Below are positions 14,805-40,712 of a DNA stretch of 64,000 nucleotides, piece by piece. The notes under the pieces were generated by a model, which worked only from the letters and a program-made list of their open reading frames with translations, was not told the DNA's origin and made no database searches. Every line of letters begins with the position of its first letter. Positions within the stretch are counted from its first letter, which is position 1. The DNA is taken from NCBI RefSeq assembly GCF_000413475.1, contig NZ_ATFK01000004.1:1-64000 (forward strand), read 5' to 3'. Source of the DNA: Streptococcus intermedius SK54 = ATCC 27335. GTDB taxonomy: Bacteria; Bacillota; Bacilli; Lactobacillales; Streptococcaceae. The position numbers were made by a program, and so were the translations under genes.

Positions 14805-15482
14805 ATGAAACAGATTCAAATTGCTATTGATGGCCCAGCTTCAAGTGGAAAGTCAACAGTTGCAAAAATTATTGCAAAAGATTTTGATTACACTTACTTG
14901 GATACAGGTGCGATGTATCGTGCAGCGACTTACTTAGCTTTAAAAAATGATTTATCAGCGGAAAAATGGTCTGAAATTGTTGCGCTATTAGATACTTATC
15001 CTGTTAGTTTTGGACGTGGTAAAAATGGAGAGCAACTCGTTTTTGTTGGAGATGTAGATGTGACGCATCCGATTCGAGAAAATGAAGTCACTAACAATGT
15101 TTCTTGGGTGTCTGCAATTCCAGAAGTACGAGAAAAGTTGGTTGATTTACAACGAGAAATTGCCACTCAAGGCGGTATTGTTATGGATGGGCGTGACATT
15201 GGAACAGTTGTTTTGCCTCATGCAGAGTTAAAAATTTTTCTTGTAGCCTCAGTTGAGGAAAGAGCTCAACGCCGCTATAAAGAAAATCTTGAAAAAGGTA
15301 TTCCAACTGATTTGGAAACCCTCAAAAAAGAAATTTCAGATCGTGATTATAAGGACAGTCACCGTTCAGTTTCTCCTTTAAAACCAGCAGATGATGCTAT
15401 TCATTTTGATACGACTGGTGTCGGAATTGTGGAAGTTGTGAATTTTATCGAAGAAAAAGCTAAAAAAATCCTTGACAAATAA
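14805..15482 (+). CDS. cmk: Cytidylate kinase
   Basis: Cmk phosphorylates CMP and dCMP with ATP. The 225 residues match the family. The P-loop GPASSGKST is at residues 10-18, followed by the DTGAMYRA substrate loop, MDGRDIGT and the lid region with [10 protein letters not shown] and [15 protein letters not shown] precedes the ATG. The last codons contain the -35 of the infC promoter, so cmk and the IF3 operon overlap in regulatory DNA. Confidence 0.96.
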
Positions 15483-15500
15483 TCCGAAACTTGTTATCAT
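15472..15500 (+). promoter_or_regulatory. Strong promoter for infC-rpmI-rplT inside the end of cmk
   Basis: A perfect TTGACA (15472-15477) and TATCAT (15495-15500) with an upstream TG are 17 bases apart. The cmk stop (15480-15482) lies within the spacer. Confidence 0.85.
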
Positions 15501-15507
15501 ATAAAAG

Positions 15508-15650
15508 TTGAGAAAAGCAGAAGTGAGAACTTCTCGCCTTGCGACTAACGTTGTCTGGCTCTACGGATTAAGTTTCAGGAATGAAATACTATCATGTAGT
15601 GCGGACTTGCGTTAGCAAGTCCGCTCTTGTTTTTCTCTAAAAATAAAAAA
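15508..15650 (+). ncRNA. infC-rpmI-rplT leader RNA (L20-leader type attenuator)
   Basis: About 145 untranslated bases separate the promoter from the IF3 start. A first hairpin pairs GAAGT with ACTTC (about 15520-15534). CTTGCGACTAACG (15538-15550) can pair, with a three-base bulge, with CGTTAGCAAG (15610-15619), which is the loop and right arm of the terminator. That mutually exclusive pairing is what a transcription-attenuation leader needs. In Bacillus, ribosomal protein L20 represses this operon through such a leader; that L20 is the ligand here is inferred from the genes it controls. Confidence 0.8.
15601..15635 (+). terminator. Attenuator terminator of the IF3 leader
   Basis: GCGGACTTGC (15601-15610), GTTA loop and GCAAGTCCGC (15615-15624) form a perfect ten-pair stem followed by TCTTGTTTTT. 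It sits upstream of the first gene of its own operon, the hallmark of an attenuator. Confidence 0.88.
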
Positions 15651-15662
15651 GAGGTGAAAACC

Positions 15663-16184
15663 ATAGCAAAACAAGACTTATTCATCAATGATGAAATTCG
15701 TGTACGTGAAGTTCGTTTGATCGGTCTTGATGGTGAGCAATTGGGCATTAAACCACTTAGCGAAGCGCAAGCGATTGCTGACGATGCAAATGTGGATCTT
15801 GTTCTGATTCAACCACAAGCTAAACCGCCTGTTGCAAAAATTATGGACTATGGAAAGTTCAAGTTTGAGTATCAGAAAAAACAAAAAGAGCAACGCAAAA
15901 AACAAAGTGTTGTTACTGTGAAAGAAGTTCGTCTTAGTCCAACTATTGACAAAGGTGACTTTGATACAAAACTTCGTAATGCACGCAAGTTCCTTGAAAA
16001 AGGAAATAAAGTGAAAGTTTCTATTCGCTTTAAAGGGCGGATGATTACTCACAAAGAAATCGGAGCGAAAGTATTAGCCGACTTTGCTCAAGCAACGCAG
16101 GATATTGCGATTATTGAACAAAGAGCTAAGATGGATGGACGTCAAATGTTCATGCAGTTAGCACCAATCCCTGACAAAAAGTAA
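15663..16184 (+). CDS. infC: Translation initiation factor IF-3, with an apparent AUA start codon
   Basis: IF3 binds the 30S subunit, prevents premature 50S joining and rejects non-canonical start codons. The protein runs from [12 protein letters not shown] through the N-domain, the Lys-rich linker and the C-domain to QLAPIPDKK, about 173 residues. No ATG lies at the expected N-terminus. The best Shine-Dalgarno in the region, GAGGTGA (15651-15657), ends five bases before an ATA codon at 15663. A GTG at 15654 overlaps that Shine-Dalgarno and a TTG at 15627 falls in the terminator T-run, so both are weaker. A start that IF3 itself would discriminate against gives autoregulation, as known for AUU in E. 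coli infC. Confidence 0.88.
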
Positions 16185-39356: not shown

Positions 39357-39505
39357 TTCCAATAATTTAATAAATCTGCTAACTAAAAAGAATAGATTTT
39401 CGTTCTAATTATAAAAATTATTAAAAACTCTTGCAATCTTTTTTTTCTTATGTTACAATCATTAATGGTTTGAAAAAACTGCCTAAGACAGTAGGGGAGC
39501 TCGAC
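39340..39505 (+). repeat. Functional rplJL promoter region (right copy of the imperfect direct repeat)
   Basis: This is the intact counterpart of 37130-37290. Similarity by eye runs from TTTTTCC through the promoter into the first part of the L10 leader (GACAGTA.GGGAGCTC). Confidence 0.75.
39431..39459 (+). promoter_or_regulatory. Promoter of rplJ-rplL
   Basis: TTGCAA (39431-39436), a 17-base spacer and TACAAT (39454-39459) with a TG just upstream form a strong promoter about 175 bases before rplJ. Confidence 0.82.
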
Positions 39506-39600
39506 TCATAAAAATCCTACCGAGGACAAAACGGATCATGTAAAAGAAACGTATTGTACTTTCGTGTCTAGGTTTGGGCGCGTTTTTCTTTTGGAAAATC
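39480..39600 (+). ncRNA. L10 ribosomal leader
   Basis: The leader contains the conserved GGGGAGCTCGACTCATAA and CCTACCGAGGAC segments and a downstream hairpin-rich TTTCGTGTCTAGG part, ending in GGCGCGTTTTTCTTTT. This is the streptococcal L10 leader, which binds the L10-L12 complex and attenuates expression of rplJL. Confidence 0.88.
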
Positions 39601-40206: not shown

Positions 40207-40575
40207 ATGGCATTGAACATTGAAAATATTATTGCTGAAATTAAAGAAGCTTCAATCCTTGAATTGAACGACCTTGTAAAAGCTATCGAAGAAGAATTTG
40301 GTGTAACTGCAGCTGCTCCTGTAGCTGTAGCTGCTGCTGGTGCTGGTGAAGCCGCAGCTGCGAAAGATTCATTTGATATTGAATTGACTGCAGCCGGTGA
40401 CAAGAAAGTTGGCGTTATCAAAGCTGTTCGTGAAATCACAGGTCTTGGACTTAAAGAAGCTAAAGAACTTGTTGATGGAGCACCAACTGTTCTTAAAGAA
40501 GGTGTTGCAGCGGCAGAAGCTGAAGAAATCAAAGCGAAATTGGAAGAAGCTGGAGCTTCAGTTACTCTTAAATAA
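40207..40575 (+). CDS. rplL: 50S ribosomal protein L7/L12
   Basis: bL12 is the mobile stalk protein that recruits and stimulates translational GTPases. The 122 residues comprise the N-terminal dimer domain, an Ala/Gly/Val-rich hinge (about 36-53), and the C-terminal domain with [21 protein letters not shown] in the usual helix-loop order. GGAGG precedes the ATG. The operon terminator follows at about 40673. Confidence 0.98.
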
Positions 40576-40672
40576 GGAGTACATACCAATTTGGGAGTGG
40601 AATCCCGATTTACCAGTCTTTGATTGCGATAAGCAAATGAAAAAAACAGGTTAAATCATTTGATTCCCTGCT

Positions 40673-40712
40673 AAAAATCCCTGTCAAAATTTGTTTGGCA
40701 GGGATTTTTGTT
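40673..40712 (+). terminator. Terminator of rplJL
   Basis: AAAAATCCCTG.CAAA pairs with TTTGGCAGGGATTTTT, followed by GTTTTTTT. Confidence 0.9.

Follow-up and report, generated by a model that had tools for sequence, protein, structure and literature searches.

Known starts of infC and the locus studied

The gene of initiation factor IF3, infC, is known to begin at a non-canonical codon in several bacteria. According to the parts of the publications consulted, the start is AUA in Staphylococcus aureus, where it was located by Ribo-Ret (PMC13009471, Nat Commun 2026), ATT in Bacillus subtilis (PMC6097659, PMC1805508) and AUU in Escherichia coli (PMC1805508). The ATT start of Listeria monocytogenes infC is described as fixed and experimentally confirmed, in a study whose reporter ranks the codons ATG > ATA > ATT (PMC13068326, seen in part). 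For Streptococcus, we saw no statement of an AUA infC start among the papers listed by our searches of the open-licence PMC literature, and the main text of the S. pneumoniae Ribo-RET paper (PMC9426450) does not mention infC.

We analysed a stretch of 64,000 nucleotides of Streptococcus intermedius SK54 = ATCC 27335 (contig NZ_ATFK01000004.1, positions 1 to 64,000), hereafter the window, for which a preliminary description made from the letters alone had proposed that IF3 starts at AUA. Genome comparison, the strength of the Shine-Dalgarno duplex and the precedent in the available text on S. aureus (PMC13009471) sustain this proposal, and infC of this Streptococcus almost certainly begins at AUA 15663.

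Organisation of the infC operon

Read from the ATA at 15663..15665 (+), infC spans 15663..16184 (+, stop codon included) and encodes 173 amino acids. The product matches NCBIfam TIGR00168 with 223.8 bits (cut-off 60; E 1.1e-66) and is up to 98% identical to the IF3 of named Streptococcus loci. Downstream lie two ORFs that, from their position and sequence, we take to be rpmI-like (ribosomal protein L35; 16218..16418, +; Shine-Dalgarno spacing 8) and, third in the operon, rplT-like (ribosomal protein L20; 16465..16824, +). The region upstream of infC holds a full-length match to the L20 leader (15509..15638, +; Rfam RF00558) that exceeds the gathering score (79.5 bits against 58.7), and the fold of 15509-15720 has a z-score of -5.1. 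Within this leader, an intrinsic terminator-like stem-loop with a T-rich tail occupies 15601..15634 (+; stem at 15601-15624). The ORF preceding the leader is presumably cmk-like, a name given by inspection. At its end we found a promoter-like site (TTGACA-17-TATCAT with TG before the -10; 15472..15500, +) with 11 of 12 matches, which is weak when taken alone: one such site was found for 0.9 expected in shuffled sequences.

Elsewhere in the window, a match to Rfam RF01470 (rli38, a name given to a Listeria sRNA) lies at 40568-40711 (+) and scores 59.1 against a gathering score of 49. An L10 leader (39464-39598) is located about 1 kb upstream of it.

Three in-frame candidates for the start codon

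The ATA at 15663 shares the infC reading frame with two upstream codons that are canonical starts, TTG 15627..15629 (+) and GTG 15654..15656 (+). The preliminary description had placed the first in the run of T of the attenuator and the second inside the Shine-Dalgarno, and both placements are correct: the TTG lies just past the terminator stem, within the T-rich tail, and the GTG is part of GAGGTGA (15651..15657, +). Direct reading also confirms that this motif ends five bases before the ATA; counted from the last G of GAGG, the spacing is 8. Duplexes with the 16S tail amount to -11.7 kcal/mol for the ATA, -4.9 for the TTG and -1.7 for the GTG, in agreement with the claim that the strongest site serves the ATA. 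The value for the ATA compares with a median of -9.3 for the 55 ATG ORFs of the window. Among 161 ATG starts of the contig, for which spacings of 4-11 were allowed, the spacing peaks at 5-7 and equals 8 in 13 cases. The AUH codon of infC is accordingly served by a strong Shine-Dalgarno at normal spacing, on the longer side of the range.

Such a configuration is rare in the window. Of the 2832 ATA triplets on both strands, five have a Shine-Dalgarno at spacing 6-9 that reaches or surpasses -11.7. The infC codon is the only one of the five that has both an open frame of at least 50 codons and a 9-nt neighbourhood free of ATG. The ATT and ATC sites that pass the same filter (24522, 59935 on the minus strand, 1186, 4148 and 42193) all lie inside longer ORFs and were discarded. 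We also rejected a downstream start at TTG 15717, which has a weak duplex (-4.4) and would remove a conserved stretch of 11 residues.

The protein family points to the same codon. The TIGR00168 match aligns profile position 3 with residue 16 of the TTG-started ORF, a Gln three codons past the ATA; extrapolated by two positions, the profile begins at the residue directly after the ATA, where the preliminary description had put the beginning of the family. Its expectation that gene finders would miscall this start agrees with the choice of a mechanical ORF caller, which picks TTG 15627 and an ORF of 185 aa.

Conservation of the start codon across Streptococcus

We read the infC start codon in 247 Streptococcus genomes and found ATA in 233, ATC in nine and AGA in one, the other four being unreadable or without infC; no ATT, ATG, GTG or TTG was seen at this position in the genomes that could be read. 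These numbers derive from a single pattern accepting ATA, ATC or ATT, which matches 241 of the 247 genomes. Its ATC/ATT form matches nine of the 247, always with ATC, one of these (G136:C23) being a second match in a genome whose infC, with ATA, lies on another contig; hence 233 genomes with ATA and eight with ATC by the pattern. The six unmatched genomes comprise one with ATC (G246), missed owing to an AGA codon downstream of the start, the one with AGA at the start itself (G141, also L348), two with N over the start (G109 and G145) and two without an infC match (G006 and G052). The AGA genome has a completeness of 89% and an internal TAG in the infC frame, and its infC record may be erroneous or decayed. 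Three genomes (G077, G127 and G246) show two partial infC matches each, as if the gene were split. A set of 80 named loci (78 from Streptococcus, one from a Streptococcaceae MAG and one from Enterococcus, with some assemblies overlapping the 247 genomes) has ATA in 77 and ATC in three (S. massiliensis, S. macacae and S. sobrinus).

The preliminary description had asked whether ATA is conserved in streptococci and had regarded its substitution in close relatives as evidence against an AUA start. Conservation stands for the great majority of genomes. Substitutions do occur to the letter, in the nine ATC genomes and the AGA genome, but ATC, like ATA, is a non-canonical start belonging to the AUH class, and the AGA lies in a broken frame. 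With this one exception, an AUH codon stands at the start of the family, and canonical starts are excluded in some relatives. Comparison of sequences thus strongly supports a predicted AUA start that is maintained in the genus as well as in its relatives.

The canonical candidates were weighed against this background. A start at GTG 15654 (giving MKTIAKQD...), with the ATA as an ordinary internal Ile codon, might be chosen by a table-11 gene finder. Of 123 distinct Streptococcus sequences, 113 have this GTG in the infC frame, and G141 retains it in frame upstream of the AGA. Its conservation is explained by its being part of the Shine-Dalgarno; the codon has no Shine-Dalgarno of its own, and S. 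suis closes its frame. In all eight named S. suis loci, one extra A in the spacer brings a TGA into frame two codons upstream of the ATA, so that neither the upstream GTG nor the TTG can start infC there, and the Shine-Dalgarno is still directed at the ATA. The start at TTG 15627 (MFFSKNKK...) yields the longest table-11 ORF, yet it sits in the tail of the L20 leader terminator, has a weak duplex and is in frame in just 41 of the 123 distinct sequences (36 nt before the start), the frame being lost in relatives. We consider the GTG very improbable, all the more so given the codon variation described below, and the TTG hardly conceivable.

Codon variation marks where coding begins

We compared codons around the ATA in 119 distinct Streptococcus sequences. 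Before the ATA, the residue would be T, I, A, N or V at codon -1 and K, N or T at codon -2, and codon -3 is a TGA stop in 10 of the 119. Differing codon pairs, which are not independent of each other, number 2770 synonymous against 5155 non-synonymous at codons -2..-1, and 25513 synonymous against 3106 non-synonymous at codons +1..+12. Variation is therefore mostly amino-acid-changing or frame-breaking before the ATA and mostly synonymous directly past it, where the residues read A-K-[QK]-D-L-F-I-N-D despite many synonymous changes, with N for D at +9 as the single exception. Codons that vary as freely as -2 and -1 speak against translation from the GTG.

The choice of Ile codon is equally telling. 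ATA is a rare Ile codon, with a share of 11% on this contig, and it is used at none of the 15 Ile codons inside the window infC after the start. The conserved Ile codons +7 and +11 are almost always ATC or ATT across the genus (ATA at +7 in 4 of the 119 sequences). For a start codon one would expect this pattern, a rare codon nearly fixed at one position and shunned at the next Ile; it fits poorly with an internal Ile downstream of the GTG.

Predicted AUH starts across the class Bacilli

Reading by eye of 36 Streptococcaceae loci outside the genus gave ATA in 35 and ATC in one; the upstream sequences of these loci are for the most part unrelated. In wider searches infC was present in 118 of 118 genomes at the level of the order and in 119 of 121 at the level of the class. 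From these we chose 120 Bacilli loci of 43 families, taking the 30 best-scoring loci of each search and 60 that represent genera and families not yet covered. In each of the 120, an in-frame AT[ATC] follows the Shine-Dalgarno at 4-9 nt (49 ATA, 56 ATT and 15 ATC). The procedure used for these calls is unable to report ATG in that column; the rows were also read by eye. The third base differs between lineages: families f2-f9, of the same order (59 loci), have 45 ATA, 9 ATC and 5 ATT, and families f10-f44 (61 loci) have 51 ATT, 6 ATC and 4 ATA. A stop lies within two codons upstream of the start in 31 of the 59 and 12 of the 61 loci, respectively. Between GGAGGTG and the start lie 6 or 7 nt in 116 loci of the 118 called, and 8 nt in the other two (L257 and L259). 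The shift between 6 and 7 nt changes the frame of the GTG of the Shine-Dalgarno, in frame in some lineages and out of frame in others; the interval therefore behaves as a spacer and not as a coding stretch. Three loci of one family, f17 (L312, L313 and L330), which we presume from their protein sequence to be Staphylococcaceae, read GAGGTG-TCAACC-ATA-GC with an in-frame GTG within the Shine-Dalgarno. Their geometry is that of the window, and they differ from it in having GGAGGTG where the window has GAGGTGA.

Some lineages carry an ATG close to the AUH codon. In families f2, f3, f5 and f8, each of the 20 loci (L233, L239, L244, L246, L281-L286, L289-L291, L293, L294, L296, L298, L300, L301 and L306) has it two codons upstream of the ATA, one base past GGAGGTG or AGAGGTG and mostly as ATG ACC ATA; in L320 (f28) it stands immediately before the ATT. 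The infC start may have shifted to that ATG in these four families and in L320. The ATG of the four families could be usable, though it nearly touches the Shine-Dalgarno, and a canonical start beside the ancestral one is a possible reading of the 20 loci. Several Bacilli genomes also have a second, weaker infC-like match of about 90-118 bits, one of them lower (for example G482:C1:98608-99090 and G407:C2:419897-420385), apparently an IF3 paralogue.

Taken over the class, these data suggest that an IF3-sensitive start has apparently been kept while its third base changes. Such changes offer a testable case for how strongly IF3 polices each AUH codon.

The triplet preceding the start

The triplet directly before the infC start is ACC in the window (15660-15662), and it conforms to R-Y-Y in 91 of the 113 loci called among the 120 Bacilli loci (L218-L337), which are related by descent. 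Averaged over 41 families the fraction is 0.70, and 23 of the 41 are wholly R-Y-Y. As a control, taken from one contig of one species, ATG starts with a strong Shine-Dalgarno have R-Y-Y in 25 of 161 cases and ACC in none of the 161. At base -1, distinct ATA spacers mostly have C (26 of 28) and ATT spacers mostly T (27 of 37).

The R-Y-Y bases are able to pair with the GGU of the Shine-Dalgarno; spacers shuffled 2000 times never reach the observed counts for any of the three start codons. In the window a speculative mini-hairpin GGU-GAAA-ACC (15653..15662, +; -2.9 kcal/mol) would join the two. Folds in the ACC lineages are weak: examples with GGU paired to ACC reach -1.5 or -1.6. We rejected the idea that a hairpin masks the Shine-Dalgarno throughout the Bacilli, because in most ATT lineages the R-Y-Y bases would pair mainly by G-U and most example folds are at 0 kcal/mol. 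The pairing is convincing only in the ACC lineages. Among the Bacilli sampled, AUU is found in most and AUC in some, AUA characterises most Lactobacillales and the presumed Staphylococcaceae, and R-Y-Y is mostly ACC in the AUA lineages. It is conceivable, if doubtful, that infC of Bacilli starts at a composite element, made of a near-constant GGAGGTG, a spacer of 6-7 nt ending in R-Y-Y and an AUH codon with a lineage-switched third base, in which R-Y-Y tunes the sensitivity to IF3, perhaps via a small hairpin with the GGU.

A putative role of the weak start in IF3 feedback

In the mechanism that we propose, ribosomes would bind GAGGTGA at 15651-15657 and initiate IF3 at AUA 15663 with initiator Met-tRNA. 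IF3 would favour AUG, GUG and UUG and destabilise initiation on AUH codons, so rising IF3 would lower its own synthesis through the weak AUA start, and the L20 leader upstream would set transcription of the whole operon. Given the AUA start, feedback by IF3 in Streptococcus seems to us somewhat more probable than its absence, by analogy with the AUU of E. coli, and it is the likeliest purpose of the codon.

Its main competitor is that the AUA acts as a fixed throttle, holding IF3 low relative to L35 and L20 with no feedback by IF3. We judge this less probable, though a serious contender: selection for a steadily low rate would favour this codon too, and, in the parts consulted of the respective papers, AUG outperforms AUA and AUU starts in S. 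aureus, with reporters of other genes (PMC13009471), and in the Listeria reporter (PMC13068326). Also in favour of a throttle, cleavage by RNase Y already raises L35 and L20 over IF3 in B. subtilis (PMC6097659, seen in part). Against a fixed throttle, a weaker Shine-Dalgarno would suffice for it, yet a strong one is kept together with an IF3-sensitive codon, and, to judge from the title of a reference in PMC13009471, IF3 of E. coli regulates its own gene at the level of translation. Considered as a whole, our explanation of the infC start, with the AUA as its core and IF3 feedback as its less certain part, appears highly probable.

With the AUA start, the N-terminus of an essential protein would be settled throughout a genus of bacteria found in humans and animals. 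Under translation table 11, gene finders have no choice at Streptococcus infC but to move upstream, to GTG or TTG, and tools limited to ATG, GTG and TTG conceal regulatory starts of this kind.

Comparison with described systems

The closest described system is infC of S. aureus, which, in the text available to us, shares with the window the gene, the AUA codon and a strong start-proximal Shine-Dalgarno; it differs in that its start was shown by Ribo-Ret, that of this Streptococcus being assigned by comparison (PMC13009471). The infC genes of B. subtilis, Listeria and E. coli have in common with it a non-canonical AUH start of IF3, and differ in using AUU where this Streptococcus has AUA, as far as the consulted parts of those sources go. 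Since AUA exceeds AUU in the Listeria reporter (PMC13068326, seen in part), AUA may by analogy be a milder brake than AUU. The operon further resembles that of B. subtilis in carrying a full-length match to the L20 leader (RF00558), an element that, unlike the AUA start, acts on transcription and is separate from the start codon. AUH starts of infC are already known in other bacteria and the Streptococcus AUA adds one case; it is a solid correction of the annotation and not a new kind of system.
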